Positions 18,166 through 30,763 of a stretch of 32,728 nucleotides of DNA are shown here, piece by piece (the first letter of the stretch is position 1; each line of letters begins with the position of its first letter). The notes beneath the pieces were generated by a model. That model made no database searches. It was given only the letters and a program-made list of their open reading frames with translations, and was not told the DNA's origin. Position numbers and translations under genes: made by a program. The DNA comes from Chitinophagales bacterium 62-2. Lineage in GTDB: Bacteria; Bacteroidota; Bacteroidia; Chitinophagales; Chitinophagaceae. The DNA lies in the NCBI GenBank assembly GCA_002050375.1, contig MWYU01000736.1:1-32728 (forward strand), in the 5' to 3' direction.

Positions 18166-18996
18166 ATGACCAGCAGATATGCCATTGGCCCAAACGAAGC
18201 AAAACAATTTGATACAACTGCTTTACGAGAAAATTTTTTGCTGCAAAACCTGATGCAGCCGGATGAGTGTAACCTTGTTTACACGCATTACGACCGGATG
18301 ATTGTAGGTGGTGTTATGCCAGCCAACGAAACTATTGTATTGCCAAAGGAAGCTGCTTTGCGTGCTGAATATTTTTTGGAAAGAAGAGAACTTGGAATTA
18401 TAAATGTAGGAGGTGATGGAAAAGTAACAACGGAAAACGGTGAATACGAGTTAACAAAATTAGATTGTGTTTATATCGGTAAAGGGACTAAGCAGGTTTC
18501 TTTTTCAAGTGATAGTGCAGGTACTCCGGCAGTTTTCTATTTACTTAGTTGCCCCGCTCATCATACTTACGAAAGCCGTAAGATGCCAAAGGAAGAAGCA
18601 ACACCTTCTAATCTTGGCAGCGTAGATACTGCCAACGAAAGAACTATTTATAAATACATACATAATGATGGTATTACCAGTTGCCAACTTGTGATGGGCT
18701 TAACAGTCTTAAAAAATGGCTCAGTCTGGAACACTATACCATCGCATGTACATGACCGAAGAATGGAAGCCTATTTTTATTTTGACGTAAAAGAAGGTCA
18801 ACGGGTAATACACCTGATGGGACATCCGCAGGAAACAAGGCATATGGTTGTAAATAATTATGAAGCTATTGTTTCTCCGCCGTGGTCTATACATTCGGGT
18901 TGTGGTACGGCAAGCTATTCATTCATTTGGGGTATGGCCGGGGAAAATAAAGATTACACAGATATGGATCCTGTAACGCTTGACGATCTTAAATAA
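18166..18996 (+). CDS. kduI: 5-dehydro-4-deoxy-D-glucuronate isomerase KduI
   Basis: 276 aa; 'YTHYDRMIVGGVMPANETIVLP', 'AEYFLERRELGIINVGGDG', 'CVYIGKGTKQVSFSS', 'SHVHDRRMEAYFYFDV', 'PWSIHSGCGTASYSFIWGMAGEN'. Confidence 0.96.
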   Translation: MTSRYAIGPNEAKQFDTTALRENFLLQNLMQPDECNLVYTHYDRMIVGGVMPANETIVLPKEAALRAEYFLERRELGIINVGGDGKVTTENGEYELTKLDCVYIGKGTKQVSFSSDSAGTPAVFYLLSCPAHHTYESRKMPKEEATPSNLGSVDTANERTIYKYIHNDGITSCQLVMGLTVLKNGSVWNTIPSHVHDRRMEAYFYFDVKEGQRVIHLMGHPQETRHMVVNNYEAIVSPPWSIHSGCGTASYSFIWGMAGENKDYTDMDPVTLDDLK

Positions 18997-19046
18997 CCTG
19001 CTTTCATAATTAAGGAAATAATAATTACAACCACTTCCATTTTTTT

Positions 19047-20105
19047 ATGAGTAATCCACCCATTCGTACTGCGCTTTGTTCTTTCGGAATGTCAGGAAAA
19101 GTTTTTCATGCACCTTTTATTAAGGTACATCATGGCTTTGAACTTTACGGTGTTTGGGAGAGAAGTTCGAAGAATGCATCAAAAAAATATCCTCACATTA
19201 AATCTTATGATACTTATGAAGAGATGCTTGCCGATCCTTCTGTTGAACTTGTAATTGTGAATACGCCTAACAGCACACACTTTAATTATGCTAAAAAAGC
19301 TTTAGAAGCTGGCAAGCATGTAATCGTTGAAAAGCCTTTTGTTATTACATCGCAGGATGGAGAAAATTTAATTGAACTGGCAAAAGAAAAAAATAAGAAG
19401 TTATTTGTTTACCATAACAGAAGGTGGGACAGCGATTTTAAAACAGTAAAAGGTGTTTTAAACAAAAAGTTGTTGGGAGATATTGTTGAAGCTGAAATCC
19501 ATTTTGACCGTTACAAAGAAGAGTTAAGTGCTAAAGCTCACAAGGAACTACCCGGGCCGGGAACAGGAACGTTATATGATTTAGGATCGCATTTAATAGA
19601 TCAGGCTCTTCAGTTATTTGGATGGCCTAAGGCAGTCTTTGCAGATGTTGATATTGTAAGAAGCATTTCAAAAGTGGACGATTACTTCGAGTTGCTATTG
19701 TTTTATAGAGATAAAAGAGTACGGTTAAAGGCAAGTTATGTGGTAAGAGAAGCACTGCCTTCATTTATATTACATGGCGTCAAAGGCACATTTATTAAAA
19801 GCAGGGCCGATGTTCAGGAAAATGACCTTCAGGCTGAAAAAATACCGGGAACAGATGGATGGGGTATAGAGCCTGAAACAGAAAAAGGCTTATTGCATAC
19901 CGAAATAAATGGAGAGGTTGTAAGGCAAACCTTGCCTACAGAGCACGGAAACTATATACAATATTTTAATGAGGTATTCGATGCAATAAGAAATAATGGA
20001 GTTGCTCCCGTAAGCGCTGAGGACGGTTTAAAGGTGATCCGGATTATTGAAGCTGCATTTGAAAGCAGCAAACAAAAAAGAGTTGTAGAATTAGTGGAGG
20101 AGTGA
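19047..20105 (+). CDS. Gfo/Idh/MocA family oxidoreductase, no signal peptide (cytoplasmic)
   Basis: 352 aa; 'RTALCSFGMSGKVFHAPFIKVHHGFELYGVWERS', 'VIVNTPNSTHFNYAKKALEAGKHVIVEKPF', 'TGTLYDLGSHLIDQALQLFG'. Confidence 0.93.
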   Translation: MSNPPIRTALCSFGMSGKVFHAPFIKVHHGFELYGVWERSSKNASKKYPHIKSYDTYEEMLADPSVELVIVNTPNSTHFNYAKKALEAGKHVIVEKPFVITSQDGENLIELAKEKNKKLFVYHNRRWDSDFKTVKGVLNKKLLGDIVEAEIHFDRYKEELSAKAHKELPGPGTGTLYDLGSHLIDQALQLFGWPKAVFADVDIVRSISKVDDYFELLLFYRDKRVRLKASYVVREALPSFILHGVKGTFIKSRADVQENDLQAEKIPGTDGWGIEPETEKGLLHTEINGEVVRQTLPTEHGNYIQYFNEVFDAIRNNGVAPVSAEDGLKVIRIIEAAFESSKQKRVVELVEE

Positions 20106-20135
20106 GGAGTAGCCGGGCAAGAAGTAATAAATGGT

Positions 20136-20198
20136 GAAGAGTGAATAGGGAATAATGAATATTGAATAATGAATAGTGAGCAATGAGTAATGAATACT
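20136..20198. repeat. Nine consecutive degenerate heptads (GARNANN)
   Basis: GAAGAGT GAATAGG GAATAAT GAATATT GAATAAT GAATAGT GAGCAAT GAGTAAT GAATACT. Confidence 0.85.
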
Positions 20199-20362
20199 AT
20201 TTACTACCCAATAACTTATTGACCCAATGACAAAGTCTCTTCTTTCTGAAGAAGTTCTAACAACTGATTCGTTTGAAGCGCTGTTTGGAGCAAAGGATTT
20301 TTGTTATTTGTTTCATCGCAGTTTTTTTCATCCATAGCCATGCTCTTATCACAAAGAGCTTG

Positions 20363-20426
20363 CAGGGAAGATTATAATAAAAGCTTTCTGCTATGACAGT
20401 GCTGCGTGTACTAAAAATCTTCCCTG
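20363..20426. repeat. 11-bp perfect inverted repeat CAGGGAAGATT...AATCTTCCCTG with 42-nt loop, between convergent genes
   Basis: 20363-20373 and 20416-20426 are exact reverse complements; flanked by a GCTCTT/AAGAGC hairpin at 20342-20359. Confidence 0.6.
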
Positions 20427-20448
20427 TACCTCTTGCCGTTTCGTGTCT

Positions 20449-21315
20449 TTATATCTTAAGCCTCTTCATGTATTCTGCATCGTCTTTTGCGGCCCCTATA
20501 GGTGTAGTGCCTTCATATTCTTCCTGCTCTACAATAAAATATTCCATTCCCACTTTTTTCGCCACTTGTATAATAGCAGGATAGTTAATTGTACCTGTAC
20601 CTAAAGTAGCGGTTTCATTTCCTTTTTTATCCTTAACATGGCCTAATTTAAAACGTCCGGGGTATTTGTTAAGCCAAACTACAGGGTCTTGCCCTGCAGC
20701 AACAACCCAGTACATGTCCATTTCATAATCTACAAGAGCTTTATCAGTGCTTTGCATCATTACATCCTGCGGGTACTGGCCCTCCACCTGCTTAAAGGAA
20801 TAAGCATGATTATGATAAGCAAAACGAAGTCCTCTTTGCCTGCATATTTCGCCCGACTTATTAAAAGTTTCGGCAGCCTGCTTAAAAGCATCCAATGTTT
20901 TTGGATTTCCTAAAGAAGGGCAAATCAAATACTTCATTCCTATTGCCGCAGCTTCATCCGCTTTTCTTTCAAGCTCTTGTTTGTAATTACAATGGCTCGA
21001 AACCATTTGCATCCCCAAATCATCCAAAAAGCTTTTAAATTCGGTATTCTTCATTCCCCAATAAATACCTTTATTGCCTTCATAGCCTTCTATTTGTTTA
21101 TAACCGAAAGAGGCTACCTGCTTTAATATGCCTTTAGGGTCTGCCGGTAAAACGTCGCGAAGGCTATAGAGCTGTAGTCCAAATACATTGTTATTGCCAC
21201 TCAATTTTGAGCCCGCCTTACAGCCGGCTATCTGACCGCCGATACCCGTTAATGCCACCCCCGACACTAACGTTGAAGCTGCTTTTAAAAAATCTCTGCG
21301 TTTATAGTGCATCAT
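20449..21315 (-). CDS. Sugar phosphate isomerase/epimerase family (xylose isomerase-like TIM barrel), predicted Tat-exported lipoprotein
   Basis: 288 aa; Tat motif 'YKRRDFLKAAS', hydrophobic h-region, lipobox-like 'IAGC'; 'GLQLYSLRDVLPADPKGILKQVASFGYKQIEGYEG', 'FAYHNHAYSF', 'GHVKDKKGNETATLGTGTINYPAI'. Confidence 0.9.
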   Translation of the reverse strand: MMHYKRRDFLKAASTLVSGVALTGIGGQIAGCKAGSKLSGNNNVFGLQLYSLRDVLPADPKGILKQVASFGYKQIEGYEGNKGIYWGMKNTEFKSFLDDLGMQMVSSHCNYKQELERKADEAAAIGMKYLICPSLGNPKTLDAFKQAAETFNKSGEICRQRGLRFAYHNHAYSFKQVEGQYPQDVMMQSTDKALVDYEMDMYWVVAAGQDPVVWLNKYPGRFKLGHVKDKKGNETATLGTGTINYPAIIQVAKKVGMEYFIVEQEEYEGTTPIGAAKDDAEYMKRLKI

Positions 21316-21410
21316 TATTTGTTGTTTTAAGGTTAGCTCATACTCTATCGGCTTTATAAGAAATCCTTTCTTTGTTTTGCCGCTGCCGTTAAAATACCTT
21401 CGCTAATAAT

Positions 21411-22895
21411 TTACGCCGATAAATCCGCAACACTAAATCCCTCCCGGTATTTACGTTTTACAAACTGGTTTACATCCTCAAAATTGCTAACCATCATCTT
21501 TTCATTGTCCCATAATAATTTGATATTCTTTCCCGGATATGTAAAGGCATTACCTACACCATTTGTCTGCCGTGGCTTGCGGAAAGTATTTCCCTTAATA
21601 GCTAAGTTTGCCATTAACAATGCTTCAGTTAAGGGGCCGGCTGTGTCGAAAGGAGAACTCATTTCCATTTTGCCATAACCTGCAATACAACCATTTACCC
21701 ATTGCGCATAGTGCCCTTCGGCGCTTCCCGGTACTCTTGCCAGCTTTTGCTTCACTTTCACCTCCTGATTTTTTGATAGAGGTAAAAGTCGCGGATCGGC
21801 GCCATAGGTGCTGCACATCATTTTACCTTTTGTGCCTAAAAACAGGCAGCCGTTGCCACCGTCGCCAAAAAGTTCAGTCGGTCCTAACTCCTGCGGTCTT
21901 GCAGGTTGTATGCCGCCATCCATCCAATGAACTAATACCGGCCCTTTCGTTTTATTGGTTTTAGGAAAATTGATAGTAACATGGCTCGATGGTGGAAAAC
22001 CTTCAGGAAAATAACCCTGCTGAAACTGATCTACGTATACTGTTCCTACGCTTGCCTGCACATCAGTAATATATTGAAGATTTAAAACGCGAAAAGCAGG
22101 TTCAACTAAATGACATCCCATATCTCCCAATGCGCCGGTACCATAATCCCACCAGCCACGCCAGTTGAAAGGCACCAGTTTCTCTACATAATCTTTTTGA
22201 GGAGCAGTGCCTAACCAGAGGTTCCAGTCTAAAGTTGAAGGCACTTCAGATTTAGTGCCTGGCCAGGGAATGCCCTGCGGCCAAACCGGTCTGTTAGTCC
22301 ATATATACACTGTACTTACATCGCCAATAATACCTTCATCATACCACTCTACTAATTGCCGTACACCATCACCCGATGCGCCCTGGTTTCCCATTTGTGT
22401 TACCACTTTATACTTTTTAGCAGCCTCGGTAAGTACGCGTGCTTCATGTACATCGTGCGTTAAAGGCTTTTGTACATATACATGTTTACCTAATTGCATA
22501 GCAGCTAAAGCAGGCGCGGCATGATTATGATCGGGCGTTGATACAGAAACTGCGTCAAAGTTCTTCGATTCTTTATCCAGCATCTGGCGCCAATCTTTAT
22601 AGTATTTTGCTTTGGGAAAGTTTTTAACTGTTGTGGCAGCTCTTTTATCGTCTACATCGCACAAGTAGGCTATGTCCGCCTTGCCGCTTTTAAAGAAATT
22701 TGCAATGTCACTTTCCCCTTTTCCGCCTACGCCTATACCCGCAATTGTAAGACGGTCGCTGGGAGCAATAAATCCTTTTCCGCCGAGCACGTGCCGGGGA
22801 ACAATCATAAATCCGGCGGCAGCCATCGTTGAATTTTTTATAAAATCTCTCCTGGAATTATTTTCAGAAGGATTAGCTTTTTCATTCTCTTTCAT
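21411..22895 (-). CDS. Tat-exported Gfo/Idh/MocA family oxidoreductase
   Basis: 494 aa; Tat motif 'SRRDFIKNSTMAAAGFMIV'; 'VSVSTPDHNHAAPALAAMQLGKHVYVQKPLTHDVHEAR', 'GWWDYGTGALGDMGCHLVEPAF'. Confidence 0.94.
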   Translation of the reverse strand: MKENEKANPSENNSRRDFIKNSTMAAAGFMIVPRHVLGGKGFIAPSDRLTIAGIGVGGKGESDIANFFKSGKADIAYLCDVDDKRAATTVKNFPKAKYYKDWRQMLDKESKNFDAVSVSTPDHNHAAPALAAMQLGKHVYVQKPLTHDVHEARVLTEAAKKYKVVTQMGNQGASGDGVRQLVEWYDEGIIGDVSTVYIWTNRPVWPQGIPWPGTKSEVPSTLDWNLWLGTAPQKDYVEKLVPFNWRGWWDYGTGALGDMGCHLVEPAFRVLNLQYITDVQASVGTVYVDQFQQGYFPEGFPPSSHVTINFPKTNKTKGPVLVHWMDGGIQPARPQELGPTELFGDGGNGCLFLGTKGKMMCSTYGADPRLLPLSKNQEVKVKQKLARVPGSAEGHYAQWVNGCIAGYGKMEMSSPFDTAGPLTEALLMANLAIKGNTFRKPRQTNGVGNAFTYPGKNIKLLWDNEKMMVSNFEDVNQFVKRKYREGFSVADLSA

Positions 22896-22969
22896 ACTGT
22901 TCAGATTAAATATTTACGATTAAACTTTTTACTTGTTATTATTTTAAGTTACAGTAACTCCAATGTACT

Positions 22970-23854
22970 TTAAACATCACAAAGATTAACGGCATCTCTT
23001 AACGAAGCAATTTTATCTGCTTTTTTAGGAATGAACTCCTGTGCTACATAACCTTTATATCCGGTATCTTTAATGGCCTTCATAATTGCGGGGTAAAATA
23101 ATTCCTGGCTATCATCTAACTCATTTCTACCGGGTACACCACCGGTATGGTAATGACCGAAGTGTTTATAATTATTTTGAATGGTTCTGATAACATCTCC
23201 CTCATCAATTTGCATGTGGTAGATATCGTATAACAACTTAAAATTTTCGCTGCCGAGACGTTTACTTAATTCAATACCCCATGCACTTTTGTCGCACATA
23301 TAATCTTTATGATCTACCCTGCTGTTTAATAATTCCATTTGTATGATAACTCCTTTCTTTTCAGCAACGGATAATATTTGCTTAAGTCCTTCAGTACAAT
23401 TTTTTAATCCTGTTTCGTCATCCATCCCTTTTTTGTTGCCACTAAAGCAGATGAGGTTTTTATATCCTGCTTTGGCAACCAGTTCTATATGGTCTGTATA
23501 ATTTTTAATAAGTTTTTCATGATACTGTTTATCATTCCATCCATTAGGAATGCCAAGGTCAGCACCATTGCACATGGAAGAAAAGATGTTGTACTTCTTT
23601 AGTGTATTCCAATCTTTTGGGCCTACTAAATCCATTGCCGCAAATCCAATTTTTTGGATGTGTTGACATAATTCTTCTAAGGGGACAAAATTATACGTCC
23701 ACCGGCAAACGGAATGGTTAATGTTTCCTTTAAGCATAATCTCTTTTATGGGTTGCTTACGCACAGAAGCAGTTAACGATTTTCCTGCAATAACTGCTGT
23801 GCCTCCTAAAATAAGGTTTTTAAATACTGCTCTGCGATTTGTTTTTTTTTCCAT
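22970..23854 (-). CDS. TIM-barrel protein of the hydroxypyruvate isomerase/xylose isomerase-like family, Tat-like signal
   Basis: 294 aa; 'KTNRRAVFKNLILGGTAVIAG' signal; 'VCRWTYNFVPLEELCQHIQKIGFAAMDLVGPKDW', 'LLYDIYHMQIDEGDVIRTIQNN', 'HYHTGGVPGRNELDDSQELFYPAIMKAI', 'VAQEFIP'. Confidence 0.88.
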   Translation of the reverse strand: MEKKTNRRAVFKNLILGGTAVIAGKSLTASVRKQPIKEIMLKGNINHSVCRWTYNFVPLEELCQHIQKIGFAAMDLVGPKDWNTLKKYNIFSSMCNGADLGIPNGWNDKQYHEKLIKNYTDHIELVAKAGYKNLICFSGNKKGMDDETGLKNCTEGLKQILSVAEKKGVIIQMELLNSRVDHKDYMCDKSAWGIELSKRLGSENFKLLYDIYHMQIDEGDVIRTIQNNYKHFGHYHTGGVPGRNELDDSQELFYPAIMKAIKDTGYKGYVAQEFIPKKADKIASLRDAVNLCDV

Positions 23855-23868
23855 ATTAGTAATGTTAT

Positions 23869-25116
23869 CTAAGTTATAGGGCTTGTTGCTAATCCTGTTT
23901 TTGCTTCTGCCTGGCTAAGGCGTTTTTTTTGCTCATCTTTAAACAGCAAGGCATATAAAAGAAATACCATTGCCGAAATAACTGCAGGTACTATCCAGAT
24001 ACTCTTCCAGTCATGTCCGTTAGCAGTGGTATATTTTTCTGCTACTAAACCTGCTATCCAAAATCCTATCAGCATTCCTACCCCGTAGGTAGCCAGGGTT
24101 ATCATCCCCTGTGCTGAAGAACGAAACTTATCACCTGCCTTATCGTTTGTATAAATCTGACCTGTTATAAAAAAGAAGTCGTAACAAATGCCATGCAGAA
24201 TAATACCTCCATACAACATCCACATTCTACTTCCCGTATCACCAAATCCAAAACATAAATATCTTAGAACCCATGCAGCCATGCCAATAAGTAACATTTT
24301 TTTTACACCTAAACGGCTAAAGAAAAACGGCATTAGAAACAGAAAGCCTAACTCCGACATTTGACCTAAAGTCATTTTGCCTGCGGCTCCTTCCACTTTT
24401 AATTCATTCAAAAAGATATTGGTTTCCTGGTAGTAAAAAGCAAGTGGAATGCAAATAAGTATTGACGATAGAAAGAATACCAGGAAGTTTTTGTCTTTCA
24501 ATAGTCCGATGGCATCCAAACCCAATATTTCGCGAAAGGTAGTTTTAGTGCCAGACTTAGGCGGAGGTGTATCTGGTAAAGCAAAACTAAAAAGCCCCAT
24601 CACTAAAGAAACTATTGCAGCTAACCTAAAAGTTTGTATCAACGTATTTTTTTGTTCCCAGGCAAGCCATGCAATAATAAGCCCGGCAACAATCCATCCT
24701 ACTGTGCCCCAAACACGGATATTGGCAAATTCTTTTTCCGGGTTATTTATTTGCTTAAACGATACTGCATTTACTAAAGCAAGGGTGGGCATAAACAAGA
24801 TCATATAAAGCAACAAAACAGGATAGAAATTAGAAAAGTTATCTATGGTAGAAATGTAATAAAGTAAAAAGGCTCCAACAATATGAAGGATACCTAATAT
24901 TTTTTGAGCGGCAAAAAAACGATCGGCAATAAGGCCGATAATGAAAGGCGCGATAATAGCGCCTAAAGATTGGGTACCATAAGCAATACCAACCTGTACA
25001 TCGGTTACCCCTTTAATAGATTTAAGATATGTACCCATCGTTACGTACCATGCTCCCCAGATAAAAAAATTAAGGAACATCATGGCAGACAATAATAATC
25101 GGGTACTAAATTTCAT
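23869..25116 (-). CDS. MFS transporter, nucleoside permease-like (NHS family)
   Basis: 415-aa polytopic; 'FFIWGAWYVTMGTYL', 'GTQSLGAIIAPFIIGLIADRFF', 'LNAVSF'-like segment, 'IILHGICYDFFFITGQIYTNDKA'. Confidence 0.8.
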   Translation of the reverse strand: MKFSTRLLLSAMMFLNFFIWGAWYVTMGTYLKSIKGVTDVQVGIAYGTQSLGAIIAPFIIGLIADRFFAAQKILGILHIVGAFLLYYISTIDNFSNFYPVLLLYMILFMPTLALVNAVSFKQINNPEKEFANIRVWGTVGWIVAGLIIAWLAWEQKNTLIQTFRLAAIVSLVMGLFSFALPDTPPPKSGTKTTFREILGLDAIGLLKDKNFLVFFLSSILICIPLAFYYQETNIFLNELKVEGAAGKMTLGQMSELGFLFLMPFFFSRLGVKKMLLIGMAAWVLRYLCFGFGDTGSRMWMLYGGIILHGICYDFFFITGQIYTNDKAGDKFRSSAQGMITLATYGVGMLIGFWIAGLVAEKYTTANGHDWKSIWIVPAVISAMVFLLYALLFKDEQKKRLSQAEAKTGLATSPIT

Positions 25117-25380
25117 TGGCGGGAAGAGTTAGCAAGCAACTGAAAAATAAATTTACCTATTTTAGAAATACAACTGTGTTTCGATTATTTCAAGAGTTGT
25201 TGCGTAGTTTTTCAAGCGATCAGAAACTACATCAGAGCATACTCGTTGGGTTTTGTATGCACTTACATTTCAGGTTTCTTCTGAATTATTGGTTCATTTT
25301 GTATAGGCTAGATTATGCTATTGTGGTTGCAAAACCTGCTTCTTTCTGCAACGCATGTATCCATTCAAAATGATAAAAGC

Positions 25381-25405
25381 AATCGTTATCATAATTGAAA
25401 CGATT
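25381..25405 (-). terminator. Inverted repeat AATCGTT...AACGATT directly after the MFS2 stop codon, possible weak terminator or attenuator
   Basis: AATCGTTatcataattgaAACGATT; exact 7-bp arms, 4 nt past the stop on the minus strand, followed by GCTTTTAT. Confidence 0.4.
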
Positions 25406-25409
25406 ATTA

Positions 25410-26651
25410 CTAATGCACAGCCATAGTCATTTCGCTTTCTGTAGCCGTCTTTGAATTCTTTTGCCAGACGAAAAATATGATAAACAGTACAACCAATATG
25501 GAAGGGAAGGTCAACATTTTTAGTAACGCACTTTGCCCGGTAGCCAGTTCCAGTGCGTTTCCTGTAATGCCCCTGGCAGTGTTTGCTGCCCTCGAATTAT
25601 CAATCCAACTACCAATTATAGGTTGGAAGATAGAGGTAGAAAACATGCCTACTCCACCCACAATCGACATACCTAAGGCACTGCTCCGGGGAACTCTTTG
25701 TGCCACTGAACCAATCATTACCGGCCAGAAATAACAAATGCCAAGAGCAAAGATTACGGCAGCCACATATGCCATAGGGCCGGTAACTGTACTGAACATA
25801 TAAATGCCTATGGTTGCTAATATCGCCGAAATCACCAGCACACCTGTCTGGCCTAAGGTGCCTACAACCGGCCCGGCAAAAAATCTGCCCACCGCCATCA
25901 AACCTGAGGTAAGGGCCAGGATTATCATTGGCTCTGCTCCGCTGCTGCTCAAAATAATACTTACCCATTGGTTTGGACCAAACTCGGTGATAGCGGTAAG
26001 GGCCATACAAATAAACAAGAATATATAAACGGGGCTCAACATGGCCTTGAAGTTTTTAGCAAGAGAGGTAGATCCTTCCACTTGCGGCTTTGGGAAGGCT
26101 TTTCCGAAAAACAAAACAGCATAAGTAATAGTTGGAATCATAGTCACCCACATCTGAGCCTGCCACGACAATCCGCTATCGGTCATAAATTTGGAGATAA
26201 GGGCGCCAAGCAAAATTCCACCGGGAAACCACATATGGAACCTGTTCAGCATTTTGTTCATTTTAACTCCTGAATACATGTCTGCAATCATAGGGTTACA
26301 GGCTGCCTCTGTACATCCATTACCAACGCCAATTAAAAGTGTGGAAATAAGTAAGGTTGCATATCCTCCTGCATAAATGGTTAATATAATCCCAATGGTA
26401 TGGCAAACAAAAGCCACCATCATTATATTTTTGGGGCCAAACGTATGATAAACCAAGCCTCCGATAATCATGGAAATCGGAAATCCTAAAAACCACATTG
26501 AATTAATAAATCCGAGTTGTTCGGCAGAAAGGCCAAATGTCTGACCTAATTGGGGCAGAATTCCTGCCCTGATAGAAAAAGTAAAGGCGGTGGTAATAAG
26601 TGCAAAGCAGCTCCCGTTAAACAAGGCGCTTTTATTAATGTTTTCGTTCAT
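25410..26651 (-). CDS. MFS transporter, sugar-type
   Basis: 413-aa polytopic; 'LGFINSMWFLGFPISMIIGGLVYHTFGPKNIM', 'IGVGNGCTEAACNPMIADMY', 'NRFHMWFPGGILLGAL'. Confidence 0.88.
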   Translation of the reverse strand: MNENINKSALFNGSCFALITTAFTFSIRAGILPQLGQTFGLSAEQLGFINSMWFLGFPISMIIGGLVYHTFGPKNIMMVAFVCHTIGIILTIYAGGYATLLISTLLIGVGNGCTEAACNPMIADMYSGVKMNKMLNRFHMWFPGGILLGALISKFMTDSGLSWQAQMWVTMIPTITYAVLFFGKAFPKPQVEGSTSLAKNFKAMLSPVYIFLFICMALTAITEFGPNQWVSIILSSSGAEPMIILALTSGLMAVGRFFAGPVVGTLGQTGVLVISAILATIGIYMFSTVTGPMAYVAAVIFALGICYFWPVMIGSVAQRVPRSSALGMSIVGGVGMFSTSIFQPIIGSWIDNSRAANTARGITGNALELATGQSALLKMLTFPSILVVLFIIFFVWQKNSKTATESEMTMAVH

Positions 26652-26970
26652 TAAATTTAAGTTTTGAGTTTTAAAATTATTGGGTTACTTAGGATTAAAT
26701 GTTGACAGAGGTGATAATAGCTGAAGGTTGCCTTATGGTAAGAGGTATAGTTTAGCATCGTTAGTATTAGAAAGAATACTTTTTAAAGCAATAAATGTAG
26801 TATTTAAAGCTATAATGTTATCTGCTATCTAAAAAAAAATTATACTATAAATAAAAAAGTAAAATAATAAACTTGAATAAACTATAAATTTGAATTTCTA
26901 TTAACTTGAGATCATCAAACGGTTGTTCTTAAAAATATAACTCCATATTTAATCACTACATTATTTGCAT

Positions 26971-28125
26971 ATGAGAAAACTAAGAATGGGAATGGTTGGC
27001 GGAGGTAAAGATGCTTTTATAGGAGCTATACACCGCATTGCTGCTAATGCAGATGGGTTGATAGAATTGGTTTGCGGGGCATTAAGTATAAATAAAGATA
27101 TTGCTATAGATAGCGGCCGTTCTTTGTTTTTGCCCGAAGACAGGATATATACAACCTACGATGAAATGATAGAAAAGGAAAGCCGGTTGCCCGAAGGCGA
27201 AAGAATGGATTTTGTTACTATAGTCACTCCAAATTTTGCCCACTTTGCCCCGGCAATGTTAGCGCTGGAAAAAGGCTTTCATGTAGTGGTTGAAAAACCC
27301 ATAACAGTATCGCTGGAAGAAGCTAAAAAGCTTAAAGAAAAATTAGACGAAACAGGATTAACGCTCTGCCTTACGCATACTTATTCAGGTTACCCTATGG
27401 TTAAGGAAGCACGCGAGCTTATTAAGAATAATGTTTTAGGCAAGGTTCGTAAAATATATGTTGAATACAGGCAGGGCTGGTTAAGCAAACTATCAGAAAG
27501 AGAAGGTAATGCCCAGGCCGCGTGGCGAACAGACCCTAAAAAATCGGGCAAAGCTGGTGGTATGGGCGATATAGGTACACACGCTGCACACCTTGCTGAA
27601 TATATTTCAGGATTAAAGATTACAGAGCTTTGTGCCCAACTAAACATTGTTGTTGAAGGCCGCGCATTAGATGATGACGGAAGTGTATTGTTGAAATTTG
27701 AAAATGGCGCTTCAGGTGTGTTGGTAGCTACACAGGTAGCAGCAGGCGAAGAAAACAATCTTCTTATAAAAGTGTATGGTGAAAAAGGCGGGCTTGAATG
27801 GCACCAGCATGAGCCCAATACTTTATTAGTTAAATGGCTTGATAAACCTGCCGAAATTTATCGTGCAGGCCAGGCTTACTTAAGCCCCATTGCAAAAAAT
27901 AACTGCCGCACTCCCGGTGGTCATCCCGAAGGTTACCTTGAAGCCTTCGCTAATATTTATAAAAGTTTCGCTCAAACATTACTAGCAAAAATCAATAACA
28001 CTCCATTCCAAAATGACGTGGTTGATTTTCCGTCAATAGAAGATGGAATCCGAGGTATGGCTTTTATAGATAACGTGGTAAAGAGTAATGAGAGTAACGA
28101 GAAGTGGACACCTCATACCGTTTAA
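26971..28125 (+). CDS. Gfo/Idh/MocA family oxidoreductase, cytoplasmic
   Basis: 'MRKLRMGMVGGGKDAFIGAIHRIAANADGLIELVCGALS', 'VTPNFAHFAPAMLALEKGFHVVVEKPITVS', 'GGMGDIGTHAAHLAEYISG'. The track start at 26965 is TTG; ATG at 26971 preferred. Confidence 0.94.
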   Translation: MRKLRMGMVGGGKDAFIGAIHRIAANADGLIELVCGALSINKDIAIDSGRSLFLPEDRIYTTYDEMIEKESRLPEGERMDFVTIVTPNFAHFAPAMLALEKGFHVVVEKPITVSLEEAKKLKEKLDETGLTLCLTHTYSGYPMVKEARELIKNNVLGKVRKIYVEYRQGWLSKLSEREGNAQAAWRTDPKKSGKAGGMGDIGTHAAHLAEYISGLKITELCAQLNIVVEGRALDDDGSVLLKFENGASGVLVATQVAAGEENNLLIKVYGEKGGLEWHQHEPNTLLVKWLDKPAEIYRAGQAYLSPIAKNNCRTPGGHPEGYLEAFANIYKSFAQTLLAKINNTPFQNDVVDFPSIEDGIRGMAFIDNVVKSNESNEKWTPHTV

Positions 28126-28130
28126 TACAC

Positions 28131-28161
28131 CACCCTTTAAATCTCCCAAAGGGAGACTTTT
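28131..28161. repeat. Palindromic intergenic repeat unit, left copy (ACCCTTTAAATCTCCCAAAGGGAGACTTTT)
   Basis: Internal hairpin CTCCCaaaGGGAG; reverse complement resembles the unit at 28221-28254. Confidence 0.65.
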
Positions 28162-28220
28162 ACAAACATTTGTAACTGTAAACGATGAGTTATCAGCAAC
28201 CGTTCAAAACATAACATAAT

Positions 28221-28254
28221 AAAAGTCCTCCCCTCGGGGAGAATTTAGGAGGAT
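28221..28254. repeat. Palindromic intergenic repeat unit, right copy in inverse orientation (AAAAGTCCTCCCCTCGGGGAGAATTTAGGAGGATT)
   Basis: Hairpin TCCCCTCGGGGA; contains AGGAGG 6 nt before the ATG at 28259. Confidence 0.65.
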
Positions 28255-28258
28255 TTCT

Positions 28259-29314
28259 ATGCAAACAATAAAAGGTCCGGGTATATTCTTAGCACAATTT
28301 TTAGGAGATAAACCTCCCTTCAACGATCTTAAAAGTATTTGTGATTGGGCAAAAAGTTTAGGATTTGTTGGGGTACAAATTCCCACATGGGATGCCAGGT
28401 GTATCGATCTGCAAAAGGCTGCAGAAAGCAAAACCTATGCCGACGAATTAAAAGGTTTAATAAATGAATGTGGATTACAAATAACGGAACTTTCAACTCA
28501 TTTGCAGGGACAATTGGTTGCGGTTAACCCTGCATATGATACTATGTTTGACGGCTTTGCTCCTGAAAACTTGCGCAACAATCCAAAAGCAAGAACAGAG
28601 TGGGCTGTTCAGCAGGTAAAGTATGCAGCAAAAGCTTCACAAAATCTGGGGTTAAATGCCAGTGCTACTTTTAGCGGAGCATTGCTTTGGCATACCATGT
28701 ACCCCTGGCCGCAACGCCCCGCCGGGTTGGTAGAAACAGGGTTTCAGGAATTAGCCAAACGCTGGTTACCTATACTTAATGTTTATGATGAATGTGGGGT
28801 TAACGTTTGTTACGAAATACATCCCGGCGAAGATTTGCACGACGGTATAACCTACGAAATGTTTTTAGAAAAAGTAAACAATCATGCACGCGCATGTTTA
28901 TTATACGATCCCTCCCACTTTGTTTTACAATGCCTCGATTACCTCGATTACATCGATCATTACCATGAACGTATTAAAATGTTTCATGTAAAAGATGCGG
29001 AGTTTAATGCAACAGGAAAGCAGGGGGTGTACGGAGGCTACCAAAGTTGGGTAAACCGTGCGGGAAGGTTTCGTTCGCTTGGAGACGGGCAGGTAGATTT
29101 TAAAGGAGTGTTTAGTAAGCTCACTGCTTATGATTATTCGGGCTGGGCAGTGATGGAATGGGAATGTGCTTTAAAACATCCTGAAGATGGGGCAAGAGAA
29201 GGAGCGATATTTATTAAAGATCATATTATAAGGGTAACCGAAAAAGCTTTCGACGATTTTGCCGGTTCGGCAAATGAAGATGAGCTTAACCGGAGTATAT
29301 TAGGATTGTCATAA
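28259..29314 (+). CDS. Sugar phosphate isomerase/epimerase family protein (cytoplasmic TIM barrel)
   Basis: 351 aa, no signal peptide; 'SLGFVGVQIPTWDARCIDL', 'VCYEIHPGEDLHDGITYEMFLEKV', 'LLYDPSHFVLQCLDYLDYIDHYHERIKMFHVKDAEF', 'GDGQVDFKGVFSKL'. Confidence 0.93.
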   Translation: MQTIKGPGIFLAQFLGDKPPFNDLKSICDWAKSLGFVGVQIPTWDARCIDLQKAAESKTYADELKGLINECGLQITELSTHLQGQLVAVNPAYDTMFDGFAPENLRNNPKARTEWAVQQVKYAAKASQNLGLNASATFSGALLWHTMYPWPQRPAGLVETGFQELAKRWLPILNVYDECGVNVCYEIHPGEDLHDGITYEMFLEKVNNHARACLLYDPSHFVLQCLDYLDYIDHYHERIKMFHVKDAEFNATGKQGVYGGYQSWVNRAGRFRSLGDGQVDFKGVFSKLTAYDYSGWAVMEWECALKHPEDGAREGAIFIKDHIIRVTEKAFDDFAGSANEDELNRSILGLS

Positions 29315-29343
29315 ACAATATTTGAAAACTTAAAAAAAGCTAC

Positions 29344-29727
29344 ATGAAAAAATTTTTTATCATTCTATCCTTTGGCTGCATTGTTATTAGTTGCGGCGAG
29401 AATAAAGATGCAAAACAAGAACCGGCACAGGAAACAAAAATAGAAACACCCACTGTAGACCCTGATGTTGAAAAAGGTGGAGATCTTGTTGCTAAAAGTG
29501 ATTGTTTAACTTGTCACCGAGTAGCGGAAAAGTTGGTAGGGCCTTCCTATCAATCTGTGGCGCAAAGGTACCAGGCAACCCCTGAAGTGTTAGATACTTT
29601 GTCGGATAAAATTATTAAAGGCGGCGCCGGAAGATGGGGAGCTGTCCCAATGACCCCGCATCCTCAGGTATCAAAAGAAGATGCCACGACAATGGTAAAA
29701 TACGTACTGTCCTTAAAAAATCAATAA
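29344..29727 (+). CDS. Lipoprotein c-type cytochrome (cyt c551/552-like)
   Basis: 127 aa; lipobox 'VISC', single heme motif CLTCH, Met-ligand-like 'VPMTPHP'. Confidence 0.9.
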   Translation: MKKFFIILSFGCIVISCGENKDAKQEPAQETKIETPTVDPDVEKGGDLVAKSDCLTCHRVAEKLVGPSYQSVAQRYQATPEVLDTLSDKIIKGGAGRWGAVPMTPHPQVSKEDATTMVKYVLSLKNQ

Positions 29728-29812
29728 GGAACCGGAACGCCGATGAAGCACTTTTGTAAAACAATGACATGCAAGTGTCAAGGCTGCATATCTATACAAA
29801 AATAATTTACAT

Positions 29813-30556
29813 ATGAAAAAATTAACTTCTCTTATAATTGCAGCAGCTATTATTAATAGCTGCACTTCTCAAAAAATCTCTACTGCCAACTCGCAGGTTA
29901 ATACTTTAACCCCCCAGGAAAAGAAAGAAGGATGGCAATTATTGTTTGACGGAAAAACAACCAACGGCTGGCATACCTATGGCTATAATTCTATTATGAA
30001 AGGATGGAGCGTTAAGGATGGAAGTTTGAGCCTGGATACCGCAGACAGAAAAGAAGTGCGTGTAGCCGGAAGTAAAGATATTGTTACCGATAATGAATAC
30101 GAAAACTATCACTTTAAAACCGACTGGAAGACTTCTCCCGGAGGAAACAGCGGAATAATTTTTAATGTACATGAAGATAAATCGAAGTATCAGAATACCT
30201 ACCAGACAGGCCCTGAAATGCAGGTTTTAGATAATGACCGGCATCCGGATGGAAAGATTATAAAGCACCGCGCCGGTGACTTGTATGATTTGATCTCTTC
30301 TTCATCGGAACCTGTTAAGCCAGTAGGCGAATGGAACACAGCAGAAATAATTCTTAACAAGGGCAAACTCGATTTTTATTTAAATGGAGTTCATATCATC
30401 GACACAAGAATGTGGGACGATAACTGGAAGAAAATGGTAGCTGGCAGTAAGTTTAAATCTATGGCTGCTTTTAGCACTTTTACTAAAGGCAGAATCGCTT
30501 TACAAGAACATGGACACGAGGTTTGGTTTAGAAATATAAAAATAAAAAGGTTGTAG
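29813..30556 (+). CDS. DUF1080 (3-keto-disaccharide hydrolase, PF06439) lipoprotein
   Basis: 247 aa; 'EGWQLLFDGKTTNGWHTYG', 'NYHFKTDWKTSPGGNSGIIFNVHED', 'TGPEMQVLDNDRHPDG', 'GEWNTAEIILNKGKLDFYLNGVHI', 'RIALQEHGHEVWFRNIKIKRL'; putative lipoprotein signal ending 'IINSC'. Confidence 0.94.
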   Translation: MKKLTSLIIAAAIINSCTSQKISTANSQVNTLTPQEKKEGWQLLFDGKTTNGWHTYGYNSIMKGWSVKDGSLSLDTADRKEVRVAGSKDIVTDNEYENYHFKTDWKTSPGGNSGIIFNVHEDKSKYQNTYQTGPEMQVLDNDRHPDGKIIKHRAGDLYDLISSSSEPVKPVGEWNTAEIILNKGKLDFYLNGVHIIDTRMWDDNWKKMVAGSKFKSMAAFSTFTKGRIALQEHGHEVWFRNIKIKRL

Positions 30557-30725: not shown

Positions 30726-30763
30726 ATAATAATAAACCCCGCTTCGGCGGGGTTTATTATTAT
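30726..30763. terminator. Strong intrinsic terminator: perfect 17-bp stem with TTCG loop, overlapping the ricT stop codon
   Basis: ATAATAATAAACCCCGC TTCG GCGGGGTTTATTATTAT; the TAA of ricT (30760-30762) is within the stem. Confidence 0.9.

Follow-up and report, generated by a model that had tools for sequence, protein, structure and literature searches.

A divergent gene island in a Chitinophagaceae genome predicted to encode non-hydrolytic glycoside utilisation

Introduction

The Agrobacterium tumefaciens operon GlycDH-AtOGE-AtHYD-Gfo encodes four enzymes for oxidation, elimination, hydration and reduction, and on preliminary evidence its Gfo protein reduces 3-keto-glucose (PMC10628242; structures 8BVK and 8RO4). 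In Caulobacter crescentus, lacABC and a DUF1080 gene, accompanied by a transporter, two epimerases and a reductase, are required for lactose use and give fitness phenotypes; similar clusters occur in Algoriphagus and Indibacter (PMC9007349). BT2156-BT2160 of Bacteroides thetaiotaomicron and the AL cluster of Alistipes form a further related system, with the structures 8TCD, 8TCT, 8TDA and 8TDF. Here we analyse an island of this published pathway class in Chitinophagales bacterium 62-2, a member of the Chitinophagaceae. The stretch studied, hereafter the window, comprises positions 1 to 32,728 of contig MWYU01000736.1 (C11 of the 755 contigs of a 4.9-Mb, 92%-complete genome). We estimate at roughly three in four the probability that positions 20449-30556 form a non-hydrolytic glycoside-utilisation locus acting by oxidation, elimination, hydration and reduction. 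The gene complement of the island in this one genome is uncommon.

Results

Organisation of the island and resemblance to described systems

A preliminary description of this DNA listed kduI, three Gfo/Idh/MocA genes, three TIM-barrel genes, two MFS carriers, a cytochrome and a DUF1080 gene, and each of these was located and found intact by analysis of open reading frames, Pfam and NCBIfam (Table 1). The island core consists of two divergent arms separated by an intergenic region, with the order mfs2-nupG-hyiTat-gfoTat-timLipo on the minus strand and gfoC-timC-cytC-DUF1080 on the plus strand, and the divergent arrangement is kept in relatives. In line with the same description, a Pfam scan of the 27 window proteins found no member of a glycoside hydrolase (GH) or polysaccharide lyase (PL) family.

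Like the A. tumefaciens operon, the island has an orthologue of the hydratase, a predicted lyase with an AtOGE-like site and a predicted Gfo reductase gene beside the hydratase gene, and its predicted reaction logic is the same. It differs from that operon in three respects: oxidation and elimination are predicted to be periplasmic, on exported proteins; the first dehydrogenase of the island belongs to the Gfo/Idh/MocA family and is not a flavoenzyme; and a DUF1080 lipoprotein, a cytochrome and a NupG carrier are added. The B. thetaiotaomicron and Alistipes system is the subject of a study by Nasseri et al. from 2024, cited in PMC13273386. With this cluster the window has in common relatives of the 3-keto-beta-glucoside lyase, the DUF1080 protein and the exported Gfo dehydrogenase, although gfoTat stays under the equivalog cut-off. 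The window also encodes a LacB-like cytochrome and two proteins with no signal peptide, the predicted AtHYD-type hydratase and the predicted gfoC reductase, which may set it apart from the Bacteroides locus. As in Caulobacter, a cytochrome c and a DUF1080 protein are encoded together; unlike the Caulobacter cluster, the island lacks LacA (GMC) and LacC (PF13618), both of which are found in most relatives' islands and on another contig of this genome, C38.

A predicted cytoplasmic hydratase and reductase

The product of timC aligns over its full length with AtHYD, the 2-hydroxy-3-keto-glucal hydratase of A. tumefaciens (8RO4), with 243 of 349 aligned residues identical (69.6%), and the two proteins have in common E186-x-H188, D217, H243 and the EWE motif. 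On this similarity timC is an AtHYD orthologue and a predicted 2-hydroxy-3-keto-glucal hydratase. For gfoC, the best PDB match was 3V5N (E 1e-110) and no characterised close relative was found among the PDB matches; it is predicted to be a 3-keto-glucose reductase because it is constantly paired with timC. The pair also occurs on plasmids of six Proteobacteria (Agrobacterium, Sinorhizobium, Phyllobacterium, Sulfitobacter, Novosphingobium and Pseudoalteromonas) and of Hymenobacter, and in Deinococcus a gfoC homologue is paired with a more distant TIM protein. When the window was compared with the proteobacterial and Hymenobacter plasmid records (L192-L197, L199), timC was about 66-79% identical and its partner gfoC 43-60%. 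The hydratase may therefore be unusually constrained or have been transferred. In one genome of the same genus (G100; loci L119 and L282) the island is without gfoC, and a 76%-identical copy lies on another contig.

The same protein families could be arranged into inositol or cyclitol catabolism, with the Gfo proteins as inositol dehydrogenases, the TIM barrels as IolE-type dehydratases and the KduI/IolB-family protein as a 5-deoxy-glucuronate isomerase. There are indeed weak matches to iolE (47.8 and 67.3 bits) and iolG (52.4-87.1 bits), and kduI belongs to the KduI/IolB family, but the identity of timC is to a solved 3-keto-glucal hydratase, no other iol gene is present among the island genes and kduI is not co-conserved with them. 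As the best scores fell far short of the equivalog cut-offs (67.3 against 290 bits for IolE, 87.1 against 355 for IolG and 31.9 against 205 for IolB), we rejected this highly improbable pathway.

Exported candidates for oxidation, elimination and epimerisation

Export signals were judged by motif. Twin-arginine translocation (Tat) motifs were found in gfoTat (SRRDFIK), in timLipo (RRDFLK, with a lipobox) and in hyiTat, where the twin arginines R7R8 are invariant; timLipo, cytC and the DUF1080 protein carry lipoprotein signals. No export signal motif was found on timC, gfoC, gfoY or kduI. These motifs support the predicted division of the island proteins between periplasm (gfoTat, timLipo, hyiTat, cytC and DUF1080) and cytoplasm (timC and gfoC) that had been put forward in the preliminary description.

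timLipo matches 8TCD, 8TCS and 8TCT in phmmer searches (E 1e-38 to 1e-39). The best Foldseek matches of its AlphaFold model (19 sequences; predicted local distance difference test, pLDDT, 88) are 8TCD, 8TCT and 8TCR, the 3-keto-beta-glucopyranoside-1,2-lyases of Alistipes and B. thetaiotaomicron, followed by AtOGE (8BVK). Residues H168-x-H170, D200, H226 and E263 are invariant across 19 orthologues and are spaced as in the AtOGE site, in which H132-x-H134, D163, H189 and E233 comprise the metal ligands and the catalytic His134 (PMC10628242). Sequence and model point to a predicted Mn-dependent 3-keto-beta-glucoside 1,2-lyase.

No flavoenzyme-type 3-dehydrogenase is present on the island of the window, and the candidate dehydrogenase on the locus is gfoTat, a relative of BT2158 that matches 8TDF and 8TDH in the PDB (E 2e-97 and 1e-94) and in which K143 (of QKPL) and D258..H262 are invariant across 19 orthologues. 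A solitary gfoTat paralogue, 60% identical, is present on contig C177 (L261 10304-11734) with no island genes in the 8-10 kb on either side; genomes of the same genus likewise hold gfoTat paralogues of solitary type.

hyiTat is hydroxypyruvate-isomerase-like and falls under all equivalog cut-offs; its model matches ketose 3-epimerases and the 3-keto-D-glucoside 4-epimerase YcjR (6WN6). E174, D210, H236 and E273 are invariant, and the His two residues past E174 is absent. It is predicted to be a 3-keto-sugar epimerase or isomerase, and this assignment is the least certain among the enzymes of the island. The DUF1080 lipoprotein matches 8TDA, 8RR2 and 9FBE (E 1e-39 to 1e-40) and most closely 4JQT (1.5e-51), and positions 231-234 align with a Q-[DE]-H-G motif. 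Kastner et al. are said to have found in 2024 that DUF1080 enzymes prefer alpha-linked substrates. The genome contains 15 PF06439 (DUF1080) matches, 14 of them above the curated cut-off.

Conservation of the island in the Chitinophagaceae

Gene neighbourhoods were sampled in 80 stretches from Chitinophagaceae genomes, each of at most 20 kb and taken around timC, onto which we mapped homologues of the window genes together with GMC and PF13618 proteins from a Hymenobacter cluster. Of the 80 islands, 74 have gfoC immediately before timC and 67 have cytC immediately after it; in 71, DUF1080 is encoded near timC. GMC genes and hyi-like TIM barrels are each present in 62, PF13618 in 46, mfs2 in 39, timLipo in 30, nupG in 26 and gfoTat in 14; kduI and gfoY are present in none. 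The adjacency of timC to gfoC and to cytC is far beyond chance, and the neighbourhood comparison that the preliminary description had suggested for this family returned a co-conserved core. Among 150 family genomes, timC was found in 103, nearly all at 66-88% identity, so that roughly two thirds of the Chitinophagaceae sampled possess the island core.

The missing flavin dehydrogenase and a second unit on contig C38

The minus arm of relatives usually encodes two further proteins, a GMC flavoprotein and one with PF13618; together with the cytochrome, these are similar to the glycoside 3-dehydrogenase LacABC (PMC9007349). In each of the seven inspected same-genus islands with an orthologous gfoTat (G100 and G151-G156), the interval from timLipo to hyi, or to the end of the sampled stretch, contains GMC and one or more PF13618 genes. 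In the window, neither GMC nor PF13618 gave a match at E<=1; cytC is kept, with CLTCH at residues 54-58 and a lipobox cysteine. The two junctions concerned measure 95 and 74 bp, and blastn matches at both fall at gene ends. An assembly gap is disfavoured since the window contains no N and the junctions are short and hold no coding remnant; a mis-join could conceivably lie behind the absence.

Away from the island, contig C38 (L260 6830-9730) carries a complete PF13618-GMC-cytochrome c row of the LacABC type, whose cytochrome matches cytC at 126 bits in phmmer. Compared with the best-matching GMC in each of four relatives, the C38 GMC protein shows 64-71% identity; in the tree it groups with the GMC of another relative. 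Because it is only 65% identical to a same-genus island GMC, compared with 76-83% for gfoTat orthologues, and because of this grouping, it is probably a paralogue, and its being the relocated island GMC is disfavoured. gfoTat and the C38 unit acting in trans are both candidates for the oxidation at C3, singly or together.

These data also bear on whether the island is a decaying remnant that, without GMC and PF13618, oxidises no glycoside and whose cytoplasmic half salvages the 3-keto-sugars of other cells. Such decay would explain the loss of two genes present in seven of seven inspected same-genus islands, and no close orthologue of the island GMC exists elsewhere in the genome, the best being the 65%-identical protein on C38. 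We nevertheless consider it unlikely, as all remaining genes are intact with their active-site residues conserved, gfoTat is a candidate C3 dehydrogenase and a full GMC/PF13618/cytochrome unit is available on C38.

A proposed pathway of glycoside utilisation

For the non-hydrolytic glycoside-utilisation locus that we favour, we infer all reactions, their order, the transported species and the substrates from homology and context. In the periplasm, a glycoside (a glucoside or disaccharide) would be oxidised at C3 by gfoTat, by the C38 dehydrogenase, or by both. The 3-keto-glycoside would then be cleaved by beta-elimination, by timLipo when beta-linked and probably by the DUF1080 lipoprotein when alpha-linked, so that 2-hydroxy-3-keto-glucal is released alongside the aglycone or second sugar. 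The product would be imported by the NupG-type and MFS carriers. In the cytoplasm, timC would hydrate 2-hydroxy-3-keto-glucal to 3-keto-glucose and gfoC would reduce this to glucose, which would enter glycolysis; hyiTat would probably epimerise 3-keto-sugars. The C3 oxidation of glycosides first suggested for this region is supported in outline. Cleavage without a classical glycosidase also stands; its mode is most likely beta-elimination with hydration and reduction as the next steps, a reading based on the orthology of timC to AtHYD and on the match of timLipo to 3-keto-glucoside lyases. The unusual glycoside or uronide previously invoked as substrate is unneeded, as ordinary glucosides and disaccharides suffice.

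Several points weigh against this pathway. Firstly, gfoTat scores 489.6 bits with the NCBIfam model of the BT2158 glycoside 3-dehydrogenase (BT_2158_fam, NF058561), whose equivalog cut-off is 750; it may therefore be BT2158-like in action yet is not filed as a member. No NCBIfam model matched the DUF1080 lipoprotein, and on both counts the substrate and exact reaction may differ. Secondly, the island is without the flavin dehydrogenase usual in relatives, which leaves the re-oxidation of an exported NAD-binding gfoTat unexplained. Thirdly, the imported species may be either the glycal or 3-keto-glucose. Finally, deletion of BT2157 or BT2158 in B. thetaiotaomicron caused no growth defect on raffinose-family sugars, although one had been seen in transposon data (PMC11501099); redundancy can thus be anticipated, also in the present genome with its 15 PF06439 matches. 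We propose only tentatively a route split between compartments in which the reactive periplasmic enone 2-hydroxy-3-keto-glucal is itself imported by the NupG-type carrier for cytoplasmic hydration and reduction, with exported gfoTat replacing the flavin dehydrogenase of relatives. The layout raises a testable question as to which species crosses the inner membrane and how the exported dehydrogenase is re-oxidised.

The assignments offer enzymatic functions where family annotation reads only 'sugar phosphate isomerase' and 'oxidoreductase'. If they are true, a non-hydrolytic glycoside pathway would be near-core in the Chitinophagaceae and invisible to surveys based on glycosidases.

kduI and gfoY lie outside the island

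The region had been described as starting at 18166, with kduI and the Gfo gene at 19047 (gfoY) as members. Since both genes are absent from all 80 family islands, that span is too wide at the left, and the edge of the island moves from 18166 to 20449; kduI and gfoY are bystanders. gfoY scores 306 bits with PRK11579, against a cut-off of 330.

A coupling of the island to KduI had been proposed, in which KduI would process 4-deoxy-uronate products of the island. kduI is adjacent in this genome and is a true KduI by NCBIfam (432 bits against an equivalog cut-off of 250), and two strong matches to GH88/GH105 families lie elsewhere in the genome. kduI is present in 86 of 150 family genomes, but none was found in the inspected same-genus islands, and in the 18 genomes that carry intact kduI and timC on one contig the two are separated by about 173 kb or more. 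The best KduD score in the 92%-complete genome was 197.6, under the cut-off of 338.85. On these neighbourhood data, the link between KduI and the island, which we hold to be most improbable, was rejected.

Table 1. Positions of the island genes and adjoining features in the window
Feature	Position	Strand	Description
kduI	18166..18996	+	PF04962, KduI equivalog; neighbour, outside island
gfoY	19047..20105	+	YdgJ-like Gfo/Idh/MocA oxidoreductase; neighbour, outside island
timLipo	20449..21315	-	Tat/lipoprotein TIM barrel, PF01261; predicted Mn-dependent 3-keto-beta-glucoside 1,2-lyase, periplasmic
gfoTat	21411..22895	-	Gfo/Idh/MocA with Tat signal; predicted periplasmic BT2158-type glycoside 3-dehydrogenase
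hyiTat	22970..23854	-	Exported PF01261 TIM barrel; predicted 3-keto-sugar epimerase/isomerase
nupG	23869..25116	-	NupG-type H+ symporter, PF03825 370 bits; predicted importer of periplasmic product
mfs2	25410..26651	-	MFS carrier, PF07690 100 bits; predicted sugar importer
Divergent intergenic region, 313 bp	26652..26964		Presumed promoters for both arms; from gene coordinates
gfoC	26965..28125	+	Gfo/Idh/MocA, PF01408/PF22725; predicted cytoplasmic 3-keto-glucose reductase
timC	28259..29314	+	PF01261 TIM barrel; predicted cytoplasmic 2-hydroxy-3-keto-glucal hydratase
cytC	29344..29727	+	LacB-like cytochrome c lipoprotein, PF00034, CxxCH
DUF1080 lipoprotein	29813..30556	+	PF06439 169 bits, cut-off 26.8; predicted periplasmic 3-keto-glycoside lyase/hydrolase
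Terminator-like hairpin, strong	30726..30763	+	17-bp stem then T run; closes island

No RNA families or tRNAs were found in the window, and a promoter scan performed no better than on shuffled sequences. The left flank carries genes for RNase E/G and for a fatty-acid-hydroxylase-like protein, and a PSP1 gene lies to the right of the hairpin. At many loci of the Sphingobacterium type (L034, L037-L040, L044, L046, L048, L051 and L082), where the other island genes were not seen, gfoC lies less than 10 kb from an RNase E/G gene, as it does in the window.

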